Source: a virus
Virus record (IMG/VR): IMGVR_UViG_3300031688_000046
Coordinates: 1-39,274 of that record
Length of the DNA: 39,274 nt
Reading direction: 5' to 3' (one strand)
Below, in pieces: positions 2,949 to 38,601 of this stretch. Numbering within the stretch: the stretch's first letter is position 1; each line of letters begins with the position of its first letter. The notes below the pieces were generated by a model. The model worked only from the letters and a program-made list of their open reading frames with translations. It ran no database searches and had not been told where the DNA came from. The position numbers and the translations under genes were made by a program.

Positions 2949-5900
2949 ATGCCACAGTTTACAAGAAATTTTATAAAAGGAAGGATGAATAAAAGCGTTG
3001 ATGAACGATTAGTTCCTCAGGGTGAATATATTGATGCTTTAAACTGTAGACTTGGATCTACAGAAAATACTGAAATAGGTGCTGTAGAAAATTCTTTAGG
3101 TAATACTAGGTTAACAACCTTAACTTACGAAAGTCAGCCTTTAAGTTCTCAGGCAAAGTGTATTGGAGCTTACGAAGATGGTGGAGAAGAAACTATGTAC
3201 TGGTTTATAAATGATCCAGCAAACACTAACTCAAGCACGGGTAAGGTTGATATGATAGTATCATACAATACTAAGTTGGATTTAATATTTTATCACGTTA
3301 TATCTACTAGTGTTTTAAATTTTGATGATACCTATTTAGTTACAGGAGTTAATCTTATAGATGGATTATTGTTCTTTACAGATAATCTAAACCCTCCTAG
3401 AAAAATAAATATAAACAGAACTTATCAGTACCCAATAAGCGATGTTGATCAGGTGACTGAACAAGACATAGGTGTTATTGTAGCTCCGCCTTTATTTGCG
3501 CCTACACTTACGCCAGTCCAACAAGGTGGTGGAGAAAATTATATGACAGATATAATGATTTCTTTTGCTTACAGATACAAGTATGAGGATAATGAGTATT
3601 CTGCTATTTCTCCTTTTTCGCCAATATCTTTTTCACCAGGACCATTTCAATTAGACTTTTCTACTTATGACAATATAGGTATGGAAAATGTATACAATAG
3701 TGTTATTGTAAAATTTAACACAGGCGGAAGAAACGTAAAGGGAGTGGATTTATTATTCAAGTCAACAAACTTTGCAGCGATAAATGTTATTGAAAGATTT
3801 AATAAATTAGATCAAGGCTGGTTAGATAATATTGAACAAACATTTCAGTTTACAAATCAAAAAATATATACTGTTTTACCAGAAGCTCAGCTTTTAAGAC
3901 TTTTTGATAATGTGCCTAGAATTGCACAATCTCAAACGCTTATGGGTAATAGGCTTATGTATGGTAATTATATTGATGGATATAATATTACAAATGAAGA
4001 CGGTCAAGATGTTTATTTGGATTATACTTTAGACTTAATATCAGAAGACTTAGATGCTGGGGAAGCACCTTCAGTAAATACTTCTTTTAATTACACTATA
4101 AATGGTTCGGTTTCAGTTATTAACGGAACGGCTACTTATGATACAACTGGATTTGATTTAAAAAGTGGTTCTCAGATAGGTATTTCTTTTAACTTAGGTC
4201 ACTCTCAATTTTCTGGAGCTGCTGAATATGTAGACGGAACGGAGCCTTTAAATGAATATGAATCTACATTTTTATTTAATATTCAAGAAGATTTTTCTAA
4301 TGCTTATGACTTAGTTAACTCTCCGTCATTTATAGCTGCAATATCTGAGTTTGTTGCGCCTTCTAATTCTACGTGTTTTTCTCAACTATGTTCTACTGGA
4401 TGTGTTAACGGTACGTCAGTTACAGATTTAATTAACTGTGGTGTTGTTGCTAAATCAAGCTGGTATAAAGTAGGTTTTGGATTATCAGGAACGAATCAAG
4501 GTATAGTTATTGGATCTACGCCTGGTAGCAATAGTTTTTCTTTAACTGTTCCAGCAATAAAATATGAGAAGTATGATACAACTGTAACTCCTAACCTTGG
4601 CTTGGGAATATTTGCTTATGAATATTTTACAGTAAGACAATCAGAACTTCTTTATAGTTTAGATTCATCAAAAAGTAGCCTACATAGTGACAGAGATTAT
4701 GAGGTTGGTATTGTTTATGAGGATGATTATGGTAGAGCAAGTACTGCTTTAGTAGATACAAACAATACGGTTTACGTTCCTTGTGAGAATTCAATTACAA
4801 AAAATACAATAAAAGTTACACTAAATAGCTACCCTCCTTACTGGGCTACTAAGTATAAATTTGTTTTAAAACCATCTAAAGATGAATATAGAACAGTTTA
4901 TTCAAACATATTTTTTCAAGAAGAAGAAACTGGTAATGTGTGGTTTAAATTAGAAGGAGATAATAAATCTAAAGTTGTTATAGATGAAAACTTAAAAGTC
5001 AAGTCTGATACAAATGGAGCAGTATTAAGATGTGTTGAAACAAAAGTTTTGGATTATGGTAGTCAAGTAGAAAATTGGCTTTGTCAAAGAGCAGGCGATG
5101 GTACTCTAATAGATGATACTTGTTCTCAGCCAACAGGAGTTTATATGCAGCTTAGACCGAGTAATTTTTCAGCAGGTATAGCAGAAGACGCGCTAATAAA
5201 CACTGGTGATGATGGATGTAAAGGGTCTTATTGTGCTGTAAAGTATGATGTTTCAATTCCTAATCCTGGCGGTTCTGGTGCAACTGAATTTATACCATAT
5301 ACTATACCAGCAGGAAGTATTGTTTCAATAAAACTTAGAGAGCAACGATATAAAAGAGGGTCTAAATGCGGAAGTAGACAATATATTTTTGACAAAACTT
5401 TTACAGCTAGTCAAGATTACGATAGTATGTATGCTTTTGTTGAAGGAGATAATATAGATTTAACAGCTGGTGTTAGTTCAGGTAGTGACGACACTATAAA
5501 TACAATAAACCAACCTAGTACATTGTATCCTTATTATACATCTTTAGCTAGTGGAGGTCAGTCTTATGTTACTTTTCAAACAGATGCTTCAAACGGAAAA
5601 ATGTATCTTGTTTTTCAAAATGGAACTCCTAATTGTGGATCGCCAAACAAGAGAAATTCTTATGGTAATGTAGAGGTTATAGCTCAAAGAGCAACCACAT
5701 TAATAGTTTTTGAAACTGAAGCAAAAGATGCTAATACAGAGATGTATTTTGAAAATGAGCAAGTTTTTGACATTACTGGAGGGTATCATCAATCAGGAAC
5801 AGATGTTACTGATCAAGATCAGACAGTAAGTTTGCCTGCTGTGATTAATTTAACTTTCTCTAATTGTTTTACTTTTGGAAATGGAGTAGAATCCAATAGA

Positions 5901-7769
5901 GTTTTAGATGCTTTAACTACCCCTAGTTTTACTATAGGCGAAAAAGTAACTGCGGTTTCTCAAGAAGAATACAAAGAAGCTCATCGTTTTAGCGATATAA
6001 CATACAGTGGTAATTTTAATAAAGAGTCTAATGTAAATAAGTTAAATGAGTTTAATTTAGCTCTTGGTAACTACAAGTCTTTAGAAAGTTCTTATGGTCC
6101 AATTAGAAAATTACACGCAAGACAGACAGACATACTTACTTTACAGGAAGACAGAATATCTTATGTATTAGTAGAAAAGAATTTACTTTCTGATGCGTCT
6201 GCTGGAGGGGCTATAGCCTCAATACCAGAAGTATTAGGTACTCAGTTAGCTAGAATCGAAGAGTTTGGTATAAGTAATAATCCTGAAAGTTTTGCTTCTT
6301 ATGGTTATGATGTATATTTTACTGACGCTAAAAGAAGTTCGGTTATAAATATTAGAGGTGGTATTAGTGCAAAGTCAGACAAACTACAAGTTATATCTTC
6401 ATTAGGTATGCGTAGTTGGTTTAGAGATTTATTCACCACTGGATTTGATACTCAGAAATTAGGAGGATATGATCCTTATATGAATGAGTTTGTTTTAAGT
6501 AGCAACACAGAATTAGTGCCAGTACCTCCAACAAATAGAGATTGTGGGTATGAGGTTAGGCAATCAAATTCTAGTGAGGCTTCATCTTTTAATATAGATT
6601 GCACATCTCTTATAGGTGATGTAGCTTGTGTATATAATTTTGATTCAGGCTCTGCTGTTTTGGTGGTTAACTATAATGGCGTTGATGTTATTAATCAAAC
6701 AATAAATGGAACAGGAACTGTAACTTGGAATAAAGGACAATCCTTTCCAACAACTGCTCAGGTAACTATTACCCCTACAGCCGCAACATATTCATTATCA
6801 TTAGGTTGTCCTCAAACAGAAAATTTAACGGTAAAACGTATTGTTATAAATGCTTCTGGAGATGCTAGCCTAACGTCTAGTATTAGATATAGATGGGCTG
6901 ATGGAACAACTATAAGTCCTTATCAAAGTGACAACATTATCTTAGAAGAGGATGGTGTTTCGTTATTTGCTTCACAAACAGGTCCTGCTTCTTTTGGAAC
7001 AATACCAGTGAGTGGTGCAACTGTAACGATGCAAAACCTACAATCTGTTGGAGAGACTTTTGCTTTTGATCCTTTAGCCGATAAACTAAAGTATTTGGTT
7101 TCTAATACCAATTATAATGAGGCTGATATAAGTACATTAATACCACTATTAAGTACTTCCACACCTATTGTAAGCGTTGGCGGTAACACCTATCAATCAA
7201 GCTTTACTTATACTAACGCAGCGAATGATGATTACTTGTATTTGGTTTGGGACTATAGAGTTGCAACTCCAATAGAACTATGTTATGATGCTACTAGCGC
7301 CTCTGAATCTTGTTGTAGTTGCGGAACAGACGCTCCAGTTTGTCCAGATAGAACTTTAGTTTTTCAGGTATGTAATAGTAATGCTGCTAAAGATGATAAC
7401 TTTGATGTATATTTAAATAACAATTATATAGGTGCTTTAGACTTAAACTCAAACACACAAGCAGGATCTGTATTTATAGCTTCTTCTAATACGAGTGCTG
7501 CGGTAACAAGTAGTGACTTTGTTTGTCCTTTAAATCTTATGGTTACATATCATTTCGATCCTAACTTTGTAGTAGGAGGAGTAAATACTTTGGAGCTTAG
7601 AAATACACAGTCTAACAATAATGGTAATTACGGGTCAATAGGTTTAAGAAATTATTTAACAACAGGAAATGTTTTAAACAGCCCTTGCGTTGTAGATAAC
7701 TTGGTGTACTCTGGATCAACAGGGTCTAGTTTTACATTAACATTTAATTACACTGAGTGTTGTCCATAA
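2949..7769 (+). CDS. Large tail/stabilisation-type virion protein
   Basis: A 1606-aa protein, second largest in the window. The N-terminus has the motif GRMNKSVDERLVPQGEYIDA (residues about 11-30) followed by an N-x-R element, a start I associate with large tail or tail-stabilisation proteins of marine podoviruses and crAss-like phages. The body is Thr/Ser/Asn/Gly-rich and predominantly beta. A conserved-looking block at about residues 1115-1190 includes YDVYFTDAKRSSVINIRGG and GGYDPYMNEFVLS. From about residue 1195 on, Cys-containing beta domains appear, ending with CCSCG (about 1455) and a terminal ECCP. No enzyme motif is seen. It likely forms the tail hub or stabilises the connector, with the C-terminal domains exposed. 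Spacing to neighbours is 1 and 12 bases. Confidence 0.8.
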   Translation: MPQFTRNFIKGRMNKSVDERLVPQGEYIDALNCRLGSTENTEIGAVENSLGNTRLTTLTYESQPLSSQAKCIGAYEDGGEETMYWFINDPANTNSSTGKVDMIVSYNTKLDLIFYHVISTSVLNFDDTYLVTGVNLIDGLLFFTDNLNPPRKININRTYQYPISDVDQVTEQDIGVIVAPPLFAPTLTPVQQGGGENYMTDIMISFAYRYKYEDNEYSAISPFSPISFSPGPFQLDFSTYDNIGMENVYNSVIVKFNTGGRNVKGVDLLFKSTNFAAINVIERFNKLDQGWLDNIEQTFQFTNQKIYTVLPEAQLLRLFDNVPRIAQSQTLMGNRLMYGNYIDGYNITNEDGQDVYLDYTLDLISEDLDAGEAPSVNTSFNYTINGSVSVINGTATYDTTGFDLKSGSQIGISFNLGHSQFSGAAEYVDGTEPLNEYESTFLFNIQEDFSNAYDLVNSPSFIAAISEFVAPSNSTCFSQLCSTGCVNGTSVTDLINCGVVAKSSWYKVGFGLSGTNQGIVIGSTPGSNSFSLTVPAIKYEKYDTTVTPNLGLGIFAYEYFTVRQSELLYSLDSSKSSLHSDRDYEVGIVYEDDYGRASTALVDTNNTVYVPCENSITKNTIKVTLNSYPPYWATKYKFVLKPSKDEYRTVYSNIFFQEEETGNVWFKLEGDNKSKVVIDENLKVKSDTNGAVLRCVETKVLDYGSQVENWLCQRAGDGTLIDDTCSQPTGVYMQLRPSNFSAGIAEDALINTGDDGCKGSYCAVKYDVSIPNPGGSGATEFIPYTIPAGSIVSIKLREQRYKRGSKCGSRQYIFDKTFTASQDYDSMYAFVEGDNIDLTAGVSSGSDDTINTINQPSTLYPYYTSLASGGQSYVTFQTDASNGKMYLVFQNGTPNCGSPNKRNSYGNVEVIAQRATTLIVFETEAKDANTEMYFENEQVFDITGGYHQSGTDVTDQDQTVSLPAVINLTFSNCFTFGNGVESNRVLDALTTPSFTIGEKVTAVSQEEYKEAHRFSDITYSGNFNKESNVNKLNEFNLALGNYKSLESSYGPIRKLHARQTDILTLQEDRISYVLVEKNLLSDASAGGAIASIPEVLGTQLARIEEFGISNNPESFASYGYDVYFTDAKRSSVINIRGGISAKSDKLQVISSLGMRSWFRDLFTTGFDTQKLGGYDPYMNEFVLSSNTELVPVPPTNRDCGYEVRQSNSSEASSFNIDCTSLIGDVACVYNFDSGSAVLVVNYNGVDVINQTINGTGTVTWNKGQSFPTTAQVTITPTAATYSLSLGCPQTENLTVKRIVINASGDASLTSSIRYRWADGTTISPYQSDNIILEEDGVSLFASQTGPASFGTIPVSGATVTMQNLQSVGETFAFDPLADKLKYLVSNTNYNEADISTLIPLLSTSTPIVSVGGNTYQSSFTYTNAANDDYLYLVWDYRVATPIELCYDATSASESCCSCGTDAPVCPDRTLVFQVCNSNAAKDDNFDVYLNNNYIGALDLNSNTQAGSVFIASSNTSAAVTSSDFVCPLNLMVTYHFDPNFVVGGVNTLELRNTQSNNNGNYGSIGLRNYLTTGNVLNSPCVVDNLVYSGSTGSSFTLTFNYTECCP

Positions 7770-9199: not shown

Positions 9200-9949
9200 A
9201 TGCCAAATTATACACTAACACATAGTCAAGACGTTCAGGGATGGGCTTCGTTTTACAGTTACTTCCCTGAATATATTATGGGTATGAATCAATACCTGTA
9301 TACTTTTAAAAATGGAGATTTATATCGACACAACACAAACCCTGTTAGGAATAATTATTACGGGAATCAATATAACTCTACAATTACAAGCGTATTAAAT
9401 GATCAACCATTACAGAATAAGGTTTTTAAAACCATAGAGTTAGAATCTGATTCTAGCTGGGGTGCAACTTTTTTAACTGACTTACAAGTAGGTAGTATTA
9501 ATGCGGATTACTTTTCTTTAAAAGAAGGTTCTTATTTTAGTTTTATTAGGTATAACCAAAATCAAGAGAATTTAAATTTAAGATCTACGCAAGGTATAGG
9601 GACGTGTGCTAATGTAACTGGAAGTGTTGCCGCACCGCCTTTAGCTATTGAGTTTAATTTCTCAGTTGACTCTATACTCAATATAGGTGCAACCGCATAT
9701 AAAATTGATGCTGGAATTTTAATTGAGTTAGGTCCTGTAACGGCAATATCTGAAGATAGACGAATTGTTACGATACTAAGCCCTGTTGATGATGCAACTG
9801 GGAGTGATAGTATAGTATACTTAAAAGACCCTGTAGCCGAGTCCTATGGTATGTTGGGATATTATTTAGAGTTTACTTTAACAAACACTAGCACTGTGGC
9901 AACCGAGTTGTTTGCTGTAAATAGTCAAGTCTTCAAAAGTTATCCATAG
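9200..9949 (+). CDS. Virion/tail protein of unknown function
   Basis: A 249-aa protein, predominantly beta, with aromatic-rich N-terminus (WASFYSYFPEYIMGMNQYLY) followed by KNGDLYRHNTNPVRNNYYG and a strand with NDQPLQNKVFKTIELES. This order, an aromatic segment then a printed-value-like NGDLYRHN loop and a QxKxFxxIELES strand, is one I associate with tail or hub proteins of Bacteroidetes podoviruses. No catalytic residues, signal peptide or membrane span are seen. It closes the transcription unit that begins at 1020, since a new promoter box follows 7 bases after its stop. Confidence 0.7.
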   Translation: MPNYTLTHSQDVQGWASFYSYFPEYIMGMNQYLYTFKNGDLYRHNTNPVRNNYYGNQYNSTITSVLNDQPLQNKVFKTIELESDSSWGATFLTDLQVGSINADYFSLKEGSYFSFIRYNQNQENLNLRSTQGIGTCANVTGSVAAPPLAIEFNFSVDSILNIGATAYKIDAGILIELGPVTAISEDRRIVTILSPVDDATGSDSIVYLKDPVAESYGMLGYYLEFTLTNTSTVATELFAVNSQVFKSYP

Positions 9950-13502: not shown

Positions 13503-16500
13503 ATGGAAGACGAATTATTATTTGAAACCCCTAATGGGTCTGTAATTACGGAGAGTGAAGCTAAATCTAAATACGGAAATAGACTTCAAGGATTGTTAGA
13601 TAGCGGAACTTTTAAGCAAACAGAAAAACCTGCCACCAAGAAAGAAGAAACTAAAAAAGAAGTTGAGGTTACTTTTGATGTTGAGGCGTTTTATATTAGC
13701 CCTAATGGTAGCGAAATAAGCGGTCAAGATGTTGTTAAGAAATATGGAGATCGCTCACAATCCTTAGTTGATGGAGGTACATTAAAAAAAAAAGACGCGT
13801 CTGTCGATTCCACTGGGGAGACGGAAAATACGGGTGGCATTACACCAATTCTAGAAACAGAAGGTATCTTATCGGATTCTGGAGATCCTACTGAAAATTT
13901 TCAAAAAGTAAATAACGTTGTCGTTGATGGTGTTCCTTTTGTTGAATTACCAACTGAGGAGCAACAGAACTATATTGATAGTTTAAAACAAAATGATGAG
14001 GACGAACCTCGTTTAAGCGGACAAAACGATATGTTTGGTCAGCCAATGAACGCTGAAGGCTCTTCTGATTTTAAAACAATGTCTTCATACGACTTTAATG
14101 ATGGAGATGTATTACAGAGTTATGTAAACTTTAATAGTAAAAAACAACTACCTGGACAAAAAGACTTTTTAAAGACGACTATTACGCAAGACGGTAAAGT
14201 TTTAGGTGATAGAGCGACTCCAGCGGGAATGATAGCCACTGAAGCTCCAAGAGAAAGAAACTTATTAAATAAATTATTTTATTCTGAGGAAGATCTTGAT
14301 GAGATTGATGCAAAAGGTACTATATCTAAAGATCTTTTAGATAAGGTTGATGTGGACCTTTCAGACTATCAAGCTTGGGAGAGAGAAAACACAAAGGAAG
14401 ATGACTTTGTTTACTCAGAGATCAGAGACTTAATAAATAGCGATGAAGATGAACAGCTTTTAATAGACAAGCGAAATTTTCAAAAATTATCAGCCTATAC
14501 AAATTCACTAGGAGATGATATACAAAATGACATAGATCTTATAGGTGATAGATTGAAATTTGAATCTAACCCAGAATCTAGAGCTATTTTATTAGCAAAA
14601 CAAAAAGCACTTAAACAGGCTCAAGTTAAAAACATTGGTAGACAGTATAATTTCCTATCTTTATTTCCTGCTCTACAAAAACAAGACGATGTAAAAAAAA
14701 TTCGTAGGAAAGAGTATATTATGAATCAAAGATCTGGGGATTTTTCTGGAGCTACTTCTAATATGGTATTAACGGCAGTTGACTCTGGATTAAAATTTGC
14801 TGGAGGGTTACTTACTGCAATACCTTCTTGGATAGAACAAGGTGGTAATTTAGCGGGTTTAGATATGAGTGGTGCTAGGGGTCTAAATGAAAGTTTGGAT
14901 GCTATGCTTAATAACGAGATTGGAACCTTTGATGGCGCTATAGATTCATCTCCAGTAGAGAGAGCTTCATTTAATGAAGTGAAAGAGGTTACTATAAATT
15001 GGCAAGGAAAACCAATGCAAGTAGGATTAACTCCACAGGGAGATATTGTTGATATGAATACAATGGTATCAATGGGTGGCTTGCTAACAAATGAGCAGGT
15101 AAAAGAAGTTAATAATTCTGCTAAAAATATATCAGAATTTGAAATAACAGCAACAGGAGGTTCTGTTCTTCAAGGAGGTACAGGAATGATTGTTAATTTG
15201 ATTGGATTGATTAAAGGTGGTCAGTGGGCTACTAAATCAATAAACAAAGCATTAAAGTCTACTGGAAGAAAAGTAAAGGGTGGTGTTGGTATGGCTGCGG
15301 TTTCTTACGGAAGCTCTGTAGCTACAGAAGTAAATAGTATAAAGAGTCAATTGATGCAGGCTGGTCTTTCTGAAGACGAGGCTATGGATAGAGCTATATT
15401 ATATGGAAATGGACGAGCGAGTTTAGATGGACTGTTTTCAGGTTTGGCTGGAGGAAATACAAAATTATTAACCGCCAATAAAAATGCTGCTGCTACATTA
15501 AGAGATCTTGTTTTAAAACCAAAGACCGTATTTAAAAGCGAGGTATTTAAACAAAAAGTAAAAGACTTAGCTAAAGAAAACTTTAGGGAGGTTGTTATTG
15601 AGGAACTTCCTGTTTTGTATAGTGGTGCTTTTTTAAATAGATTAGCTAATGAGTCTATTGGTAAAGAAATTTTAGATCAAGAAGTGTCTAAAGCTTCTGT
15701 TATAGAGACTGTGGTTCTTACTTTAGGAGCTACATCTGGTCTAGGAGCAAAAACATTGTTGACTAACAATGGTCGTAAGGATTTATTGAAGGCAGCTACT
15801 GAAAGCTCTAATATAGAAAAAGATATTGCAGATGCTGTAAATAACGGTGATATTACTGAAGCAGAGGGTAAGTCTGTTTACACAGAGGTTTACAATATGC
15901 AAACTGGTATAAACCAGACACAAGGTACTATGTTAGTTAGTTCTAATATAGAGCCAGCTGCCGCTTTACTAAACCAAAGACAGAAGTTAATGGCTAAGAG
16001 AGCGGAATTAGAAGGACCGTTAAAGTTAGAGATAGATAAGAAAATAGAGGGAGTTGATTCTCAAATTGATGCTTTAAAAAAGCAAGATACAGCAGAGGCT
16101 AAAGCTATAATGAATCAACAGAAAGAAGGAACTGTTACTACTAATGTTACCAAGGAAGAGGCTTTAGCTTCTTTAAAGGCTGAGAACGAAGTTAGAGAAA
16201 AAGCTGGATTGCCTGTTATTTTAGAGTCTGAAGAAAATATTTTAAAAGAACAAGATAACCTATTAAAAGAAAAACAAGATGCCATTCAAGAGTCAAAAAC
16301 AGAGGAGCAAGTGCTATCAGATGATGGCGGAAGCAAAGAAACAAGGGAAACCGATAACGTGGAACTGCAAGGAGTGGGAAAAGGAGACACACGTCAAACT
16401 ACCGTCACTGATGAGAAGACGCTAACTCCAGAACAACAAGTAAAGTCTGATGAGTTAAATAAAAAAAGAGACGAAAAGATAGATCAAGAGTCTCGTAGGT

Positions 16501-19500
16501 TTGTAGTTCCTGGAACTAAAACTCAGGTTCAAATGAATGCTGATGGCACAGCTAATCCTGTTGCTGTAAAAGAAAACACTGATAAACCCGTTAGTAGAGG
16601 TAGACAATTAAAAGCTAACAAGATGATATTGGAAGATGTCATTGATGTTAATGAAGGTACTCGACTAGACCTGGATGCATCAACTAATTTAACGGAAACA
16701 GAATATTCTCAGGAGGTAGCTGATAATTCAAACAACATAAAAGAAATTGCAGAGACTCTTGCTATAGAAAGAAAAAATAGAAAAAATTTAACTAAAGCTG
16801 AAAAAGAAGAGCGAGCTGATCCTTTAGATATTAAAGGTAAGATAGGTAAAATTAGTGAAGCAGATTACGCTAAGTATGGAGACCCTAATAACATTACTCC
16901 TCAAATGCGTCGTTTCTGGTTTAAGAAAAAAAACAAATTTGGTCAAAACCCAAAGTCTGATTTAGACACTAGTGTTACTGGGCTTCAGGGTTATACTACT
17001 GAAAATGAAAGCAAATACATACAAGATGTTATAGATTTTATAACAGCAAATCCTACTGGAAAACTAAATATTGAATCAGGTATATCAAATGTTGAAACAA
17101 GTTTAGAGAATAAGTTTGAACAGTTAACAGGTTTAAAGGCTACACCAATAAATATAGATACTGTAAACAATATTGATCCTAATAGAGAACCTATTAGTGT
17201 AACTAAGAAAAAAGGTAAAGACATATCACAGAAAGAAGCTTCTGAACCTGGTGTATTTGGAAAAAAGAAAGGTCCTTCTCCAGATAAAATTTTAGGTAAA
17301 AAGAAAACATCATCTGACAAAACAAAAGAAGAGGGTGAGAATGTAAACAGAAAAAAGTTCTGGAAAAGCTGGAACAAAGCATATAGAGAGTCTAAAACTG
17401 ACCAGACCACTAGAAGAAAACAACTTTCAGATGCTATCCAGGACTTACTGACATCTAAAACTATAACAACAAAAAAAGCGAAAGCTTTAATTAAAAAGAT
17501 TTCTGGTGTAAACCTTAATAATCCTCGTCTGGTAAGCCAGGTATTGGAGTATGTTACAAAGGTTAGTATGGATGCTGCTAACGCAAAGAAGTTTGATGAT
17601 GCTAAGAATTTGTCTAATAAAATAAAAAAACTTTTAAAAAGCGAAAGCTTAGATGCAGAGGTTTCTATCGCAGCAAAGCAGTTTAATAAGATTGATCCTA
17701 ACTTAGTTAGTGATTTAGATTTATACCTAGACAATGCTCAGCGAATTGTAAATGGTTTAACTAAAACCAAAACAGATAAAGAAGGTAATCTTATTTTTGC
17801 GGGTACAGTAGACATAAAAGCAATAGACAAATATACTAGTGAAACAATTATTCAAGAGGCAAAAACAATTAGTGATGCTGAGGCTAAAGCTTTTAGTGAT
17901 TTAACAGGGTTAGATCCTAGTGAATTTAGTATTGCGGAAATGCGTTCTATTTTAGAGGAAACAGGCTCTAAGGAGTTAGACCAAACTAATGAACAAAAAG
18001 CCAATGAAAAAGACGATAAAATAACTAAAGCTGTTAAGAAGGCTTTTGCTTTTTATAAAAAATCTATTAATGATATTATAAAAAATAGAATTGACCCTAT
18101 TAGTGGTGAACCTTTAGTTATAAGCAAGGCTGATCGTAAAGTTATAAAAGAGTTTATGGATGTTGACATTGATTTAATGACTACCGCTAAAGAAAAACTA
18201 GAAGCTTTGGACGCTATGGTTAATTTTATTGTAAACCAAGGTACTGGTGGTATGGTTGCTACAACTAAGCGTAACCAAGGAATGAAAAACACTATTGAAG
18301 CTAACAAGAAGCTAAAACCAGCTAGAAAATTAAAGCTTTTTGGTTCTGAAAAAGTTGCTAATTTTTGGTATAAAAAACTAGGTGCAACTCCTAGGATAAT
18401 TGAAAACTTATTTAAAGGAACGTCTACAGCTAGGATTTTTAACAGGTTATCTGGTTTTGACGGGATAAGGAATGGAGTCGCAAAGGCTGAAGCATTAACA
18501 AATGATATTGCTCAGTCTTATGTAGATAAGTTTCTAAAACCAACAAGCAGAATAAATGCAGTAAAAGGTACTACAAAAACACAACCTAACGGCACAGATT
18601 TCAATACAGCTGAAAATGACATCGAAAGATTTATGTATGGTTTTATGCTAAGAACTGTAGATGGAACTAAAGAGGAGCAACAAAATGAATTTGACAGAAG
18701 AAAACGACATATAGAAGAATCTATTGTCGCATATACTCAAGACGGAGATACAAAAAAAGCAGAGCTTGGGCAAAAGATTTATGATAAAATAATCTCAGGA
18801 TCTAAAAATATTGAAGATATAAAAGCTAAAGTTGATCCAACAAACAAAGAAGCTATTGAATGGATTATTGGTCAGTGGTCAGAAATTAGACCAGAACTGG
18901 CAAATGTATCTCTCAATATATATAATAAGGTTTTAGGAAAAGATATTAACTACCTTACAGATTCCTATGTATTATTAAGTGACGAATCTTCTGGATTAGA
19001 TCAAGAAATTGGAACTCCTCAATTTCAAGGTACTTCACAGAAAATTTACGATAAGAAATCAGGTGTTTTAATGGATGTTACTAAGCCTAAAAGCCTTCCT
19101 ACTGGAAGAGTTTTAAATTTTGGTTTTGATTCTGTGCAGTTTAGCGGATTAAAAGACGCTTTAACGGATCTTGAAACAGCAGAAAGTATACAGATAATGA
19201 AAGGCTTTCTAGGTACTAAAAATAAAATGAACCCCGCCTTTAAAAATCTAATCCCTGATGTAGACAATAGGAACCTTATTTTTAGTAAGTTTCAGAATTA
19301 TGTAAATGCTAAAAGAGGAGCAAGTGAAAAAATTCAAGACAAGGAGACTATAAAGTTTCTTAATCAGATAGCTGGAATTGGTGTGTCTAGAGTTTTAGGT
19401 GGACCAACGCAGTTTTTGAAACAGTTAACTCCCTTGGTAAATACAGCTACAAATTTAATGTTTGATCTTGGATCTGTTGGCAAAGGTATTTCTTTAATAA

Positions 19501-20702
19501 CCAGAAACCCTGATGCTAGAATTTGGTTAAGTAAATCAGGTTATGAAATTGCTAATCGTGGTTTACAGTCTATAACTAACTTAGAAGGAACTAACACAAG
19601 ACTAGATAAATCTGCTGAAGGAAAAAAAGAAAAATTTGGAAGAGCAATATTAGAGGCTAATAAATTTTATTTAGAAAAGTTTTTGGTTAATCCAGATAAG
19701 TTTGCAGCTCAAGCTTCGTGGATGGCATACTATATGAATGACTTAAAAAAACAAGGTATAGATCCTTCTAGTATTGATTGGTCAAATCATAAGGTAAATA
19801 AAAAAGCAGGTGCTTTTGCTGAACAACAAGTAGGAAGACAGCAGAATGTTTCTGACACAGACCTGCAGGGTGATTTGTTTAACAGTAAAAACGCTACATC
19901 ACAGGTTGCTCGTAAAATATTTTTTCCATTCGCTAACTTTTTGATAAATCAAAAGACAAGAATGTATACTGATTTTAACATAGCTCTTAGTAAAACAGCT
20001 ACAAAAGACGATAAAAGAAATGCGTATCGTTCTTTAGCTGGTCTTGGAGTAGAGACAGCTACATTTAACTTACTTGGATTAGCTATTACTCAAGGATTGG
20101 CTGCTATGTCTCAAGCGATAACTGGAGATGACGATGAGGAAGATAAAAATAAAGCACTTCAAAATAGATTAAAAGGTAGAGCTGGTAACGTAGTTAAGGA
20201 TATTTTATCACCTATACCTCCATTAGATGACTTAACTTTAATGATGGTTAATAAGGTTATAAAAACTGCTAGTGACGGAGATGATCCTTTTCAGTTTTTT
20301 GCAAAAGATAAAAAAACATTTATAGAGCAAGCAGGTGTTTTGGGTATACCATTTGGGACTGCTGGTGATTTATTTGAGATGATAGGTATCGGATCTACTG
20401 GAACTTACACGGATAATTATGGTAAAGAACGAGAAATTGATCCATCGTTAAAAGGAGCAGCGACTCTTAATGGTTTAGCTTACCTTTTATATAGTCTTGG
20501 TATGCTTCCATCTGAAGCAGGATCTATTATTAAGTATAATGTAAAATCATACAAAAAGAGTGGGAATAAAAGTAAAGGTGGATCAGGTATTCCTATAAAA
20601 ACAAAAACAAAAACAAAAACAAAAACTAATAGAAAAAGAAAAACAAATAGCGGTGGACCATTACTAGGTGGTAAGAAAAAATCAGGAGGGAGATTGTTTT
20701 AA
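13503..20702 (+). CDS. Giant (2399-aa) candidate ejection/polyvalent virion protein
   Basis: The largest gene here. The N-terminus carries two copies of a short motif: ETPNGSVITESEAKSKYGNR then LLDSGTFK (residues about 8-38), and YISPNGSEISGQDVVKKYGD then LVDGGTLK (about 63-96). Glycine-rich membrane-like helices lie at about 418-450 and 548-580. A long Lys/Glu-rich, probably coiled-coil region covers about 770-1500. The C-terminal part has GGPTQFLKQLTPLVNTATNL (about 1966), ASWMAYYMNDLKKQGIDP (about 2070), KIFFPFANFLINQKTRMY (about 2138) and a membrane-like helix (about 2180-2205), then a basic KT-repeat tail. That C-terminal pattern is one I associate with very large internal virion proteins delivered during infection. 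No transglycosylase motif was seen. Its 3' end overlaps the convergent HNH gene by 21 bases. Confidence 0.7.
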   Translation: MEDELLFETPNGSVITESEAKSKYGNRLQGLLDSGTFKQTEKPATKKEETKKEVEVTFDVEAFYISPNGSEISGQDVVKKYGDRSQSLVDGGTLKKKDASVDSTGETENTGGITPILETEGILSDSGDPTENFQKVNNVVVDGVPFVELPTEEQQNYIDSLKQNDEDEPRLSGQNDMFGQPMNAEGSSDFKTMSSYDFNDGDVLQSYVNFNSKKQLPGQKDFLKTTITQDGKVLGDRATPAGMIATEAPRERNLLNKLFYSEEDLDEIDAKGTISKDLLDKVDVDLSDYQAWERENTKEDDFVYSEIRDLINSDEDEQLLIDKRNFQKLSAYTNSLGDDIQNDIDLIGDRLKFESNPESRAILLAKQKALKQAQVKNIGRQYNFLSLFPALQKQDDVKKIRRKEYIMNQRSGDFSGATSNMVLTAVDSGLKFAGGLLTAIPSWIEQGGNLAGLDMSGARGLNESLDAMLNNEIGTFDGAIDSSPVERASFNEVKEVTINWQGKPMQVGLTPQGDIVDMNTMVSMGGLLTNEQVKEVNNSAKNISEFEITATGGSVLQGGTGMIVNLIGLIKGGQWATKSINKALKSTGRKVKGGVGMAAVSYGSSVATEVNSIKSQLMQAGLSEDEAMDRAILYGNGRASLDGLFSGLAGGNTKLLTANKNAAATLRDLVLKPKTVFKSEVFKQKVKDLAKENFREVVIEELPVLYSGAFLNRLANESIGKEILDQEVSKASVIETVVLTLGATSGLGAKTLLTNNGRKDLLKAATESSNIEKDIADAVNNGDITEAEGKSVYTEVYNMQTGINQTQGTMLVSSNIEPAAALLNQRQKLMAKRAELEGPLKLEIDKKIEGVDSQIDALKKQDTAEAKAIMNQQKEGTVTTNVTKEEALASLKAENEVREKAGLPVILESEENILKEQDNLLKEKQDAIQESKTEEQVLSDDGGSKETRETDNVELQGVGKGDTRQTTVTDEKTLTPEQQVKSDELNKKRDEKIDQESRRFVVPGTKTQVQMNADGTANPVAVKENTDKPVSRGRQLKANKMILEDVIDVNEGTRLDLDASTNLTETEYSQEVADNSNNIKEIAETLAIERKNRKNLTKAEKEERADPLDIKGKIGKISEADYAKYGDPNNITPQMRRFWFKKKNKFGQNPKSDLDTSVTGLQGYTTENESKYIQDVIDFITANPTGKLNIESGISNVETSLENKFEQLTGLKATPINIDTVNNIDPNREPISVTKKKGKDISQKEASEPGVFGKKKGPSPDKILGKKKTSSDKTKEEGENVNRKKFWKSWNKAYRESKTDQTTRRKQLSDAIQDLLTSKTITTKKAKALIKKISGVNLNNPRLVSQVLEYVTKVSMDAANAKKFDDAKNLSNKIKKLLKSESLDAEVSIAAKQFNKIDPNLVSDLDLYLDNAQRIVNGLTKTKTDKEGNLIFAGTVDIKAIDKYTSETIIQEAKTISDAEAKAFSDLTGLDPSEFSIAEMRSILEETGSKELDQTNEQKANEKDDKITKAVKKAFAFYKKSINDIIKNRIDPISGEPLVISKADRKVIKEFMDVDIDLMTTAKEKLEALDAMVNFIVNQGTGGMVATTKRNQGMKNTIEANKKLKPARKLKLFGSEKVANFWYKKLGATPRIIENLFKGTSTARIFNRLSGFDGIRNGVAKAEALTNDIAQSYVDKFLKPTSRINAVKGTTKTQPNGTDFNTAENDIERFMYGFMLRTVDGTKEEQQNEFDRRKRHIEESIVAYTQDGDTKKAELGQKIYDKIISGSKNIEDIKAKVDPTNKEAIEWIIGQWSEIRPELANVSLNIYNKVLGKDINYLTDSYVLLSDESSGLDQEIGTPQFQGTSQKIYDKKSGVLMDVTKPKSLPTGRVLNFGFDSVQFSGLKDALTDLETAESIQIMKGFLGTKNKMNPAFKNLIPDVDNRNLIFSKFQNYVNAKRGASEKIQDKETIKFLNQIAGIGVSRVLGGPTQFLKQLTPLVNTATNLMFDLGSVGKGISLITRNPDARIWLSKSGYEIANRGLQSITNLEGTNTRLDKSAEGKKEKFGRAILEANKFYLEKFLVNPDKFAAQASWMAYYMNDLKKQGIDPSSIDWSNHKVNKKAGAFAEQQVGRQQNVSDTDLQGDLFNSKNATSQVARKIFFPFANFLINQKTRMYTDFNIALSKTATKDDKRNAYRSLAGLGVETATFNLLGLAITQGLAAMSQAITGDDDEEDKNKALQNRLKGRAGNVVKDILSPIPPLDDLTLMMVNKVIKTASDGDDPFQFFAKDKKTFIEQAGVLGIPFGTAGDLFEMIGIGSTGTYTDNYGKEREIDPSLKGAATLNGLAYLLYSLGMLPSEAGSIIKYNVKSYKKSGNKSKGGSGIPIKTKTKTKTKTNRKRKTNSGGPLLGGKKKSGGRLF
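20597..20626 (+). repeat. Tandem hexamer (AAAAAC)x5 encoding a KT repeat
   Basis: Five perfect copies of AAAAAC in frame encode alternating Lys-Thr near the C-terminus of the 2399-aa protein, followed by more basic residues (NRKRKTN). A perfect short tandem repeat like this is prone to slippage, so its copy number may vary among relatives. Confidence 0.85.
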
Positions 20703-28804: not shown

Positions 28805-29226
28805 AATTTTTCTTGTTTAATGATTTGTGTGTATTTATTTAAAATGTTATCTCTTTTAAGTTTGAGATAATCGTAATGTTTTTTATTATTCCTCTGATTT
28901 ACTTCGCTTTGTATCTTTGTGTTGATCACTTCAATCTGATCTTTGTAGGTTTTTTTTAACATATGATATACCCCATTCCTAAATCCTTTATCTAAAAAAT
29001 ATAAGTAGTCATCATAGTCTATCTCTTGATAGTCTAAAGTTCCTTTTTTTGTGTTGTAAATTTTTATCCCCTCCTTATCACTTATTATCTTTATTCCCCT
29101 ATAAAATACAGACTCATTTTTTTCAGTAGTCATTTTTACAGATTTTGAAAAATTACAAGCTTGTTCCCATACTATATATAGGTAGTCTAAGCGACCTAAC
29201 AACATACTTCTGCTTTTTTTAGGCAA
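28801..29226 (-). CDS. Protein of unknown function before the recombinase genes
   Basis: A 141-aa frame from this ATG, but the true start may be the internal ATG at 29133: the first 31 residues overlap the previous gene by 31 bases and look unlike the rest. From there the protein reads MTTEKNESVFYRGIKIISD and continues with IKIYNTKKGTLDYQEIDYDD, then FLDKGFRNGVYHMLKKTY and a basic helix (NQRNNKKHYDYLKLKRDN). The GFRNGVY turn and alternating strand pattern suggest a small alpha/beta protein. No motif recognised. It overlaps the annealing-protein start by 4 bases. Confidence 0.65.
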   Translation of the reverse strand: MPKKSRSMLLGRLDYLYIVWEQACNFSKSVKMTTEKNESVFYRGIKIISDKEGIKIYNTKKGTLDYQEIDYDDYLYFLDKGFRNGVYHMLKKTYKDQIEVINTKIQSEVNQRNNKKHYDYLKLKRDNILNKYTQIIKQEKL

Positions 29227-29510
29227 GTATCAAAAAATTCACTCAAGTCTTTATCATTGTCTTCCTCTAAAACTTTTGTTATTTTTATAATAGATCTGCG
29301 TACAGTTTCATATTTTACATCAAAACCTCTTTCATACATTAATGATACAATTTGGTTTATTGTCATTGGTCTTTCGTGACACAATTTATATAGTAAGTGT
29401 CTTGGTCTGGAGACCTCCCTATTCCTAACATCAGAAAACATCTGTTCTTCTGTTATCTCTAACCCACTACATATAAGTTTAACGTATTCATTAAAAATTC
29501 CTCTCTTCAT
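29196..29510 (-). CDS. Second DnaA domain-IV-like DNA-binding protein
   Basis: Annotated from the ATG at 29510 (MKRGIFNEY), 4 bases after the stop of the upstream 48-aa gene; an upstream in-frame ATG at 29549 would lie inside that gene. The 104 residues follow the helical order of DnaA domain IV: FNEYVKLICSGLEITEEQMF (first helices), DVRNREVSRPRHLLYKLC (the R-x-x-ARxxxxYL helix), MTINQIVSLMY, then GFDVKYETVRRSIIKI in the place of the GGRDHTTVLHACRKI signature. The recognition helix is more diverged than in the 150-aa protein, so DNA specificity may differ. No ATPase is present. It may be an origin-binding protein or a transcription regulator. Confidence 0.65.
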   Translation of the reverse strand: MKRGIFNEYVKLICSGLEITEEQMFSDVRNREVSRPRHLLYKLCHERPMTINQIVSLMYERGFDVKYETVRRSIIKITKVLEEDNDKDLSEFFDTCLKKAEVCC

Positions 29511-29514
29511 TGTT

Positions 29515-29661
29515 TTATTGTTTTTTAGATTTATAAGCATACTGCGCACCCAACATTACGAAATACTCTTTCCAGGTAAATTCTGTTGGTGTTGGAGGTA
29601 ATGGAATCTGATTATTTTCCACTTCTCTTTGTTCGATAAATTTTTCGCTTGATTTTCCCAT
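29515..29661 (-). CDS. 48-aa protein of unknown function
   Basis: Read in the gap upstream of the second DnaA-like gene: start at 29661, stop at 29515. The protein begins MGKSSEKFIEQREVENNQIP, then has a Pro/Thr stretch LPPTPTEFTW and ends KEYFVMLGAQYAYKSKKQ. Spacing of 4 bases to the next ATG and a clean frame support it. No motif recognised; it might be a small adaptor of its neighbour. Confidence 0.6.
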   Translation of the reverse strand: MGKSSEKFIEQREVENNQIPLPPTPTEFTWKEYFVMLGAQYAYKSKKQ

Positions 29662-36312: not shown

Positions 36313-37896
36313 ATGAGTTACAGTCCAAAAGATCTAATCTTTGAAAAAGAGGGTAGGGATAAATTAAAAAAGGGGATCAATGCAATTACAGATGCTGTAA
36401 AAAGTACTTTGGGTCCTTTAGGTAAAACAGTTCTTATTGAATCTCCAGAACATACTCACGGTATTACTGTGACAAAGGATGGGGTTACTGTTGCTAAGTC
36501 TATATTTTTAGAGGATGCTGTAGAGAACTTGGCTGTAAAGATGATGAAGGAGGCTGCGGATCGTACTGCGACTTCTGCTGGAGATGGAACGACTACTGCT
36601 ATTGTGCTTACTGAGGCGATTATTCGTCACGGAATGGATGCGATAGAGAGAGGCGAGAATATAAACACTACAGAATTAATCAAAGAGCTTAACGACACTG
36701 TTAAGCAGATTGTAAAAAACCTTAGTAAGAGTTCAAAAAAAGTAAGTGACAAGACATTGCGTGATGTTGCTACTGTTTCTGCGAACAATTCGATTGAGTT
36801 GGGGCAATTAATTTCTGATGCTTACAAGGAATTGGGTAAGGATGGGATTTTGACTGTTGAGAATTCACAGACTGAAGAGACTTACTACGATATTACTAAG
36901 GGTATAAAAATAGAGCGTGGATATACTACTCGTTTGTTTGCTAATAATGAGCGAAACGATGAGTGTGTTTTGGATGATGTTCATATTTTAATTACTGACA
37001 CGGAGATTCAGAGTCTTTTGGAGATTGAGAACATTTTACGTCCTTTGATTAAGGAGAAGAAGAAGCTTTTGATTATTGGGAATTGCACACAGAATGTAAT
37101 TAACACATTAGGCGCGAATAAAGTTCAGAACAATTTAGCGATATGTAATATTATACCGCCTTCATTTGGTTATAAGACCAATGAGTTATTAACTGACATT
37201 GCTTTGTCTGTTGGTGCTAAGTATTTCAGTGAGTCACAGGGTGATGATTTGAGTTTACTTACGATGGAGAGTTTAGGGTTTGCGAATAAGATTATTGTTG
37301 GAAAAGACAGTACTGTTATTGTGACTTCTGACGAGAAGCAAAAAGAGGAGATAGGCGAAAGGATTGATCAATTAAAAGATCAGCACAAGAAAAATTCTTT
37401 AAACAAGTTTGAGAAAGATTTTATATTAGAACGGATAGCGAACTTGACTGGATCAGTTGGCGTTATTTATGTAGGGGCGAACTCGGATATTGAGCAGAAA
37501 GAAAAATTTGACCGCATCGATGATGCGGTGTGTGCTGTTCGATCAGCGTTAGAGGAAGGTATATTGCCAGGGGGAGGCGTTGCGTTATTGCGTGAGGCTG
37601 AGAAACTAGGTGATGGAATATCGAATGATATACTATACCAATCTTTAACAGCGCCGCTAGAGCAGATACTCTCGAATGCTGGAGATGACATTAAAAAAGT
37701 ACGAGATACAATTTGTTCTTGTGCAAAGGCTCCAGTTAATTACGGGTACAATGTAAAGAGCAAGGAATATGGTGATATGTTTAAGATGGGGATTATAGAT
37801 CCAGCTAAAGTAACCAAGAACGCATTGATTAATGCGGTTAGTGTTGCTACGACTATACTAAGTACAAACGCAATAGTAACAATGAAACGAGCATAA
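36313..37896 (+). CDS. groEL: Chaperonin GroEL, phage-encoded
   Basis: A 527-aa group I chaperonin. Equatorial ATPase elements are intact: TLGPLGKTVLI (32-42), TKDGVTVAK (54-62, D56), AGDGTTTAIVL (89-99, D91) and IDDAVCAVRSALEEGILPGG (about 401-420), with NYGYN near 478. The apical domain has a hydrophobic face (RGYTTRLF; SLLEIENIL) for substrate and co-chaperonin binding. The usual C-terminal GGM tail is missing: it ends IVTMKRA. It overlaps the groES start by one base. It likely folds phage virion proteins or compensates for the host chaperonin; the ring partner and substrates are not known. Base composition appears higher in G+C than neighbouring early genes. Confidence 0.97.
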   Translation: MSYSPKDLIFEKEGRDKLKKGINAITDAVKSTLGPLGKTVLIESPEHTHGITVTKDGVTVAKSIFLEDAVENLAVKMMKEAADRTATSAGDGTTTAIVLTEAIIRHGMDAIERGENINTTELIKELNDTVKQIVKNLSKSSKKVSDKTLRDVATVSANNSIELGQLISDAYKELGKDGILTVENSQTEETYYDITKGIKIERGYTTRLFANNERNDECVLDDVHILITDTEIQSLLEIENILRPLIKEKKKLLIIGNCTQNVINTLGANKVQNNLAICNIIPPSFGYKTNELLTDIALSVGAKYFSESQGDDLSLLTMESLGFANKIIVGKDSTVIVTSDEKQKEEIGERIDQLKDQHKKNSLNKFEKDFILERIANLTGSVGVIYVGANSDIEQKEKFDRIDDAVCAVRSALEEGILPGGGVALLREAEKLGDGISNDILYQSLTAPLEQILSNAGDDIKKVRDTICSCAKAPVNYGYNVKSKEYGDMFKMGIIDPAKVTKNALINAVSVATTILSTNAIVTMKRA

Positions 37897-38153
37897 TGAA
37901 AGCAATAGGGAAAACCATAGTAATTGAAACGATTAAAGAAAAAGAAACTACTGAGTCTGGGTTATTACTAACCTCAGCTGACACAGATAAGTTTAGATAT
38001 AAGAAGGGAAAGGTTATTATTCCTGGACACGAGTGTTTGGTAATAAAAGTAGATGATATTATTTTCTATGACAAAGCTGCTGGACACACAATGATGCTAA
38101 ACGAAAAGATATATACTATTATTCAGGAGCGTGACGTTGTTGTTGTCGAATAG
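37896..38153 (+). CDS. groES: Co-chaperonin GroES, phage-encoded
   Basis: An 85-aa co-chaperonin, shorter than the usual 95-97 aa. The N-terminal KTIVIETIKEKE, mobile loop TTESGLLLTSADTDKF (with LLL in place of the IVL contact) and the C-terminal strands YTIIQERDVVVVE are in place. The roof hairpin between GKVIIPGHE and DDIIFYDKA is very short, as in T4 Gp31, which I recall also lacks it. It starts within the groEL stop (TAATG-type overlap), in groEL-groES order, the reverse of bacterial operons. Its 3' end overlaps the convergent regulator gene by 35 bases. Confidence 0.95.
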   Translation: MKAIGKTIVIETIKEKETTESGLLLTSADTDKFRYKKGKVIIPGHECLVIKVDDIIFYDKAAGHTMMLNEKIYTIIQERDVVVVE

Positions 38154-38601
38154 TTTTATTCATTTCTTTTATAATCTTACGATAAACTTTATTGCTGTAT
38201 TTTGTATCTGATTTGAATATAGGATTTCGGTATGGGCTTTCAGAAATAGTCTCTTGCATATTTAGTTTTCTATAAACAGAGGAGACTATTCTTTTTCCTT
38301 TAAAGCCTAATTCGTATAGTTTAGATTCTCTTCCAATTCTTTCGCGCCAGACTATTATCCATTTTTGATTTAGTAATTTATGAAACCTCATTTTGTCCCA
38401 GGGCATCACTTCGTCAAATTCGTCAAATTGTTTTCTAGTAAATAAACCTTCGCTGTATAGGAACAGCATCATCTCTAAATCCGCAGATCCTATTCCGTAA
38501 GTTGCTTTAGCCCAGTGCTTTATAACTTTCCAGTATTTTAAGTAGTCGTTTGTAGGCATTTTACGATCATAGTTTGCTCGTATTTTTTTGTCAAAACTCA
38601 T
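38119..38601 (-). CDS. Winged-helix (MarR-like) regulator candidate
   Basis: Annotated from the ATG at 38601 (MSFDKKIRANYDRKM), because a longer frame to 38673 would start with a hydrophobic stretch that overlaps the divergent promoter and the next gene. The 160-aa protein has the helix ADLEMMLFLYSEGLFTRKQF, then MPWDKMRFHKLLNQKWIIVW, a wing-like RIGRESKLYELGFKGKRIV and YRKLN. This helix-turn-helix-wing order fits MarR-type winged helices. Likely a phage transcription regulator. It is divergent from the late operon and convergent with groES, overlapping it by 35 bases. Confidence 0.7.
   Translation of the reverse strand: MSFDKKIRANYDRKMPTNDYLKYWKVIKHWAKATYGIGSADLEMMLFLYSEGLFTRKQFDEFDEVMPWDKMRFHKLLNQKWIIVWRERIGRESKLYELGFKGKRIVSSVYRKLNMQETISESPYRNPIFKSDTKYSNKVYRKIIKEMNKTIRQQQRHAPE

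Follow-up and report, generated by a model that had tools for sequence, protein, structure and literature searches.

The groEL and groES genes lying side by side in the IMG/VR virus record IMGVR_UViG_3300031688_000046 raise the question whether they belong to the phage and work together, and which kind of folding machine such a pair would form. The record, a fragment of 39,274 bases, was analyzed over its whole length and is referred to as the window; neither end repeats nor tRNAs were found in these 39,274 bases.

Genes of the cassette and their lineage

Both open reading frames of the groEL-groES cassette claimed by the first-pass annotation were recovered with family matches (Table 1), and the groEL stop and the groES start share one base (TAATG). 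GroEL matched Pfam Cpn60_TCP1 (PF00118) over residues 25-525 with 1.6e-51 and 176 bits (cut-off 34.3) as well as the PHROG groEL family (3e-134), and GroES matched Pfam Cpn10 (PF00166) with 1.4e-10 and 41.5 bits (cut-off 21.1). The AF2 model of GroEL (mean pLDDT 80) comprises a complete GroEL fold with a full-length match by Foldseek. The model of GroES (pLDDT 88) shows a Cpn10 fold in which mainly the mobile loop is of low confidence; its best VIA Z against Cpn10 structures was 11.8, and against gp31 of phage T4 Z values of 9.6 and 8.9 were obtained. The window GroEL has the domain architecture of a group I chaperonin, and the window GroES has both the domain and the fold of Cpn10.

Table 1. 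Coordinates of the chaperonin cassette, its convergent neighbour and the residues and segments discussed in the text
Feature	Position	Strand	Description
groEL	36313..37896	+	527 aa; group I chaperonin subunit, viral lineage
Glu239 codon, equivalent to E. coli GroEL L234	37027..37029	+	GroES mobile-loop contact; residue alignment
Glu450 codon, equivalent to R452	37660..37662	+	ring-ring contact, same change as SR1; residue alignment
D459, I460, K461, K462 codons, equivalent to E461, P462, S463, V464	37687..37698	+	ring-ring contact
groES	37896..38153	+	85 aa
GroES mobile-loop segment KEKETTESGLLLTSADTDKFRYKKGK	37935..38012	+	26 aa; low AF2 confidence, as expected of a flexible loop
GroES roof segment	38013..38057	+	15 aa; roof hairpin essentially missing
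Convergent small gene	38119..38601	-	probable ATG at 38601, ORF open to 38673; overlaps the groES end

Closer alignment to E. coli GroEL showed all ATPase residues intact (T30, G32, K51, D52, D87, T89-T91, D398, G414-416, N479 and D495 in E. coli numbering), as had been proposed from the sequence before, and a loss of these residues is ruled out. The nucleotide-site columns retain the bacterial residue class far above matched columns (P = 0.0002). The lack of a GGM tail was borne out as well: the protein ends in ...VTMKRA, and the tail is missing in 28/28 viral representatives, compared to 36 of 50 bacterial GroELs that carry it near the C-terminus. As a peculiarity of a few members, the position of E. 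coli D155 is occupied by Ser (S160, codon 36790-36792) only in the window and its five closest relatives, the other 76 viral sequences having Asp. A mutation of D155 in E. coli GroEL is known to make the allosteric switch sequential.

The relatives of the window comprise 80 IMG/VR loci (56-98% identity) and the GenBank entry MW202828, which results in 82 sequences including the window. In all 82, groES lies 3' of groEL and shares its strand; the gaps among the relatives range from -44 to 3,358 bases, so that the gene order is conserved and tight coupling is not. In four relatives (L054, L063, L066 and L075) the two genes are 2.6-3.4 kb apart, which suggests insertions inside the cassette. Bacterial operons begin with groES, followed by groEL. 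The same order was found in the phages Flavobacterium immuto, Bacteroides DAC16 and Cellulophaga Calle_3 and phi40:1, and from these differing orders among phages it can be concluded that gene order follows lineage. Such a relation was reportedly also seen in virioplankton, where gene order is said to track GroEL phylogeny (Marine et al. 2017, ISME J). The reversed order emphasized by the first-pass annotation is present, but the context that cultured elemo phages share it had been missed; both gene order and the carriage of chaperonins by phages are already known.

A maximum likelihood tree of GroEL (IQ-TREE) was calculated from viral representatives, elemo and 50 bacterial GroELs, 29 of them from Bacteroidota. 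The window groups with its relatives and elemo in one clade (UFBoot 100), separate from the 50 bacterial GroELs, which upholds the phage ownership of the cassette. Without elemo, the 29 sequences of the window lineage reached a support of only 38, and elemo may therefore branch inside. Host contamination or misassembly is ruled out by the 81 relatives with the same arrangement together with the tree. The members of the lineage are probably podovirus-like phages of roughly 60 kb that infect Bacteroidota and have Flavobacterium phage elemo among their relatives; since the assignment is drawn from relatives, we infer both host and phage group. One relative of the cassette (L089, 2633-4331), in which groEL is split over two frames, lies in a Flavobacteriaceae metagenome bin (UBA5079). 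This fits a Bacteroidota host, although the bin placement may be binning noise.

The small convergent gene was found beside groES in 80 of the 81 relatives and in elemo. Its product had no Pfam match and looks by eye like a winged-helix regulator; in MW202828 the gene after groES is annotated as 'repressor protein'. Elsewhere in the window, a match to the crAssvirus muzzle C-terminal domain (PF25729, 7.4e-17) at 9200-9949 points to a tail apparatus related to crAss-like phages. A small protein encoded on the minus strand at 29196-29549 and present in 27 relatives showed a weak match, below the cut-off, to the DnaA C-terminal helix-turn-helix.

Co-chaperonin, contact residues and ring-ring interface

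The description of GroES as an 85-aa protein with a shortened roof and LLL loop contacts was confirmed by comparing its segments with other GroES. The roof segment comprises 15 aa in all 82 viral sequences, compared to 24 in E. coli, so that the window roof lies 9 residues below the E. coli length, and no strand pair of a roof beta-hairpin was found between residues 45 and 54 of the GroES model. What the first pass had missed is that a short roof is partly seen already in many Bacteroidota GroES (19 aa in 17 of 29), and part of the viral shortening may thus be host heritage. The mobile-loop segment has 26 aa in 82/82 viral GroES and 24 aa in 49/49 bacterial ones, with the sequence SGLLL at residues 21-25 of the window protein in a stretch of low pLDDT; the window GroES has a flexible mobile loop with a hydrophobic tripeptide. 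Roof loops are likewise missing from gp31, and the cage that it forms with E. coli GroEL is larger (PMC6318259). Since gp31 works without them, the absence of the roof hairpin is regarded as a variant, and the membership in the GroES/Cpn10 family stands.

On the side of GroEL, the GroES loop is contacted by L234, L237 and V264 (PMC3514286). The position of L234 is occupied by Glu in 81 of the 82 viral GroELs and in none of the 50 bacterial ones, that of V264 by Ala in 65 of the 82, and L237 is invariant. As a set, the apical groove is not more altered than matched columns (P = 0.44), and an unusual change of the groove as a class is therefore unsupported; the case consists of L234E and V264A. 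These lineage-wide changes at two of three contact residues strengthen the earlier idea of a matched pair, while the exclusion of host GroES proposed along with it can only be inferred. The rewritten contact residues suggest a poor fit of host GroES on the phage GroEL.

Based on these sequence comparisons and monomer models, we consider it likely that the cassette encodes a functional, matched phage group I chaperonin pair with old vertical inheritance, a retuned grip between its two halves and a larger cage similar to that of gp31. Less expected is that ring-ring residues are rewritten throughout the lineage along with those contacting GroES, which suggests a matched, possibly single-ring machine.

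The ring-ring interface was absent from the earlier account. The single-ring mutant SR1 carries R452E, E461A, S463A and V464A, and in an ancestral chaperonin that forms single rings the changes are E460R/S463A/V464E (PMC12696368). At the four SR1 positions the window shows E, D, K and K (R452E, E461D, S463K and V464K). A departure from the bacterial class at two to four of these positions was found in all 82 viral sequences, compared to departures at none of them in 48 of 50 bacterial ones. The left ring-ring site is altered too, with K105 and A109 changed (the latter to E or R by alignment, charged either way) and a shortened E434 loop, and the inter-ring columns retain the bacterial class with 0.22 vs 0.57 in matched columns (P = 0.008). 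Judged from the alignment, the canonical ring-ring contact residues are lost in the window GroEL.

These changes would be explained if the pair were a single-ring chaperonin whose ring-ring surface is lost, a reading that we regard as quite possible but stop short of favouring. Since a single ring needs a less tightly binding, releasable cap, the phage would then carry its own GroES. GroEL single rings were described to need a weakened GroES, and GroES I25L appears functional with them (PMC5575113). Leu is found at the I25 position in 73 of the 82 viral GroES, but also in 8/49 bacterial ones. The chaperonins of the phages EL, OBP and AR9 form single rings (PMC5934643, PMC9598537), but are distant and act without a co-chaperonin. 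Furthermore, the altered contacts could build another double-ring interface, and crystal structures of GroEL E461K and E434K were among the Foldseek matches, so that single changes need not break assembly. Slightly more tentative is the fuller version, according to which the whole widespread phage lineage would possess a natural single-ring GroEL with a roofless, weakly binding GroES, the grip being retuned (L234E; Leu at I25) and the cap opened for large virion proteins. If true, the pair would be a natural counterpart of the engineered single-ring GroEL-GroES and of mitochondrial Hsp60-Hsp10.

Departures at SR1 positions were also observed in the GroELs of the Vibrio phages K364 and YC and of the Cellulophaga phages Calle_3 and phi40:1. 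From these it appears that the loss of ring-ring contacts may have been repeated among phages.

As another explanation, the phage GroEL could be a broad-use duplicate that works with host GroES and raises the folding capacity, with the phage GroES being accessory. The canonical ATPase site and overall fold, the invariant L237 and the Vibrio phages pv27, K364 and YC, for which no GroES was detected near groEL, are consistent with such a role. However, groES is retained at 82/82 loci, and the lineage is fixed for L234E, a change in a residue that contacts GroES. Both observations make the duplicate an unlikely reading.

Base composition and co-divergence

A G+C content of 48% in a 60-base sample of groEL (37501-37560) had been taken as a hint at separate ancestry. 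The value holds (48.3%), but it is a local peak, since groEL as a whole shows 38.0% and the window 32.6%. The codon usage of groEL nevertheless deviates strongly, with z = -8.2 against the other window genes and a GC3 of 0.34 vs about 0.22. This shift is not restricted to the window: each of the three genes, groEL, groES and the convergent one, has an elevated GC3 at 57-63 of 69 loci. The region 36313-38601 forms a compositional island with a GC3 above that of the flanking genes across the lineage. The raised G+C appears to be an old property of the three-gene module, perhaps caused by the expression level or by the history of the module.

The distances of GroEL and GroES are correlated with r = 0.85, and those of groEL and replication genes with r = 0.75-0.89 (Mantel p = 0.0005 each). 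Because the unlinked replication genes correlate equally, the correlation within the pair does not by itself prove that its two members coevolved, and the mirror-tree signal was rejected for this purpose. The correlation with the replication genes does show that the cassette diverged together with the phage genome, and with the lineage-wide GC3 the raised G+C is no sign of recent capture; the recent gene transfer read from the 48% sample was rejected accordingly, and a separate ancestry in the sense of a recent one is not supported by the G+C. A recently captured foreign cassette or a misassembled host piece, for which the codon usage and GC3 of groEL could be cited, is highly improbable: cassette and neighbour recur in 81 relatives, flanks and cassette are equally similar in L005 and L006, the distances are congruent with those of the replication genes, the clade is distinct from bacteria, and GC3 is raised throughout the lineage.

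Proposed mechanism and known systems

For the matched pair, the following course of events is assumed. In the window, groEL and groES open the run of rightward-transcribed genes, beside the conserved convergent regulator-like gene, and would be translationally coupled. GroEL would bind and hydrolyse ATP in the ordinary way and capture non-native phage proteins. Its apical groove (L234E, V263A/G, V264A) would be retuned to the phage's own GroES, and ATP would drive the docking of this GroES onto GroEL. The roofless GroES with its longer mobile loop would then seal a dome that is larger and more open, in the manner of gp31 on host GroEL; the missing roof hairpin together with the longer mobile loop points to a cap for a larger cage. 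Should the ring-ring surface be lost, single rings would do the work, and a tuned cap would be needed for release (PMC5575113). As clients, virion proteins of the phage itself are most likely. Two very large proteins of the virion module are encoded at 2949-7769 and 13503-20702 (1606 and 2399 aa). The 2399-aa protein matched no family and may make high demands as a folding client.

Compared to known systems, the Flavobacterium phage elemo (Elemovirus, e.g. NC_055855) is similar in the groEL-groES order with a one-base overlap, a GroES of 83 aa with a 15-aa roof, the missing GGM tail and the convergent gene after groES. In contrast to the window, the GroEL identity is about 41%, L234 and R452 are kept, and three of the four SR1 positions are changed to residues other than those of the window. 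Podoviridae sp. ctfjg026 (MW202828) shares order, neighbour and clade, whereas its GroEL is 55-56% identical and its listed ORFs share 44 bases. In immuto, DAC16, Calle_3 and phi40:1 both GroEL and GroES are phage-encoded as well, but groES comes first and the GroELs belong to other branches; DAC16 also differs in that the canonical ring-ring residues are kept.

T4 gp31 resembles the window GroES in its fold without roof loops, the longer mobile loop and a TESGL-type loop sequence. Unlike the window GroES, it acts on host GroEL by replacing host GroES, and the identity is negligible (8-13%). Since the window phage encodes its own GroEL, a gp31-type role on host GroEL is unlikely. The chaperonins of EL, OBP and AR9 and the mutant SR1 are phage-encoded or engineered GroELs with single-ring states; in SR1 ring-ring contact residues are replaced as in the window GroEL, for which single rings are a possibility. 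EL, OBP and AR9 differ in that their chaperonins are very distant and need no co-chaperonin.

Altogether, the studied phage GroELs of EL, OBP and AR9 act without a co-chaperonin and T4 supplies only the cap, whereas the window lineage encodes both halves and has cultured Flavobacterium phages among its relatives. It therefore offers a natural test of whether one ring with a tuned cap is enough for a working GroEL-GroES system, and of whether the cage becomes larger for large viral proteins once the GroES roof is lost.
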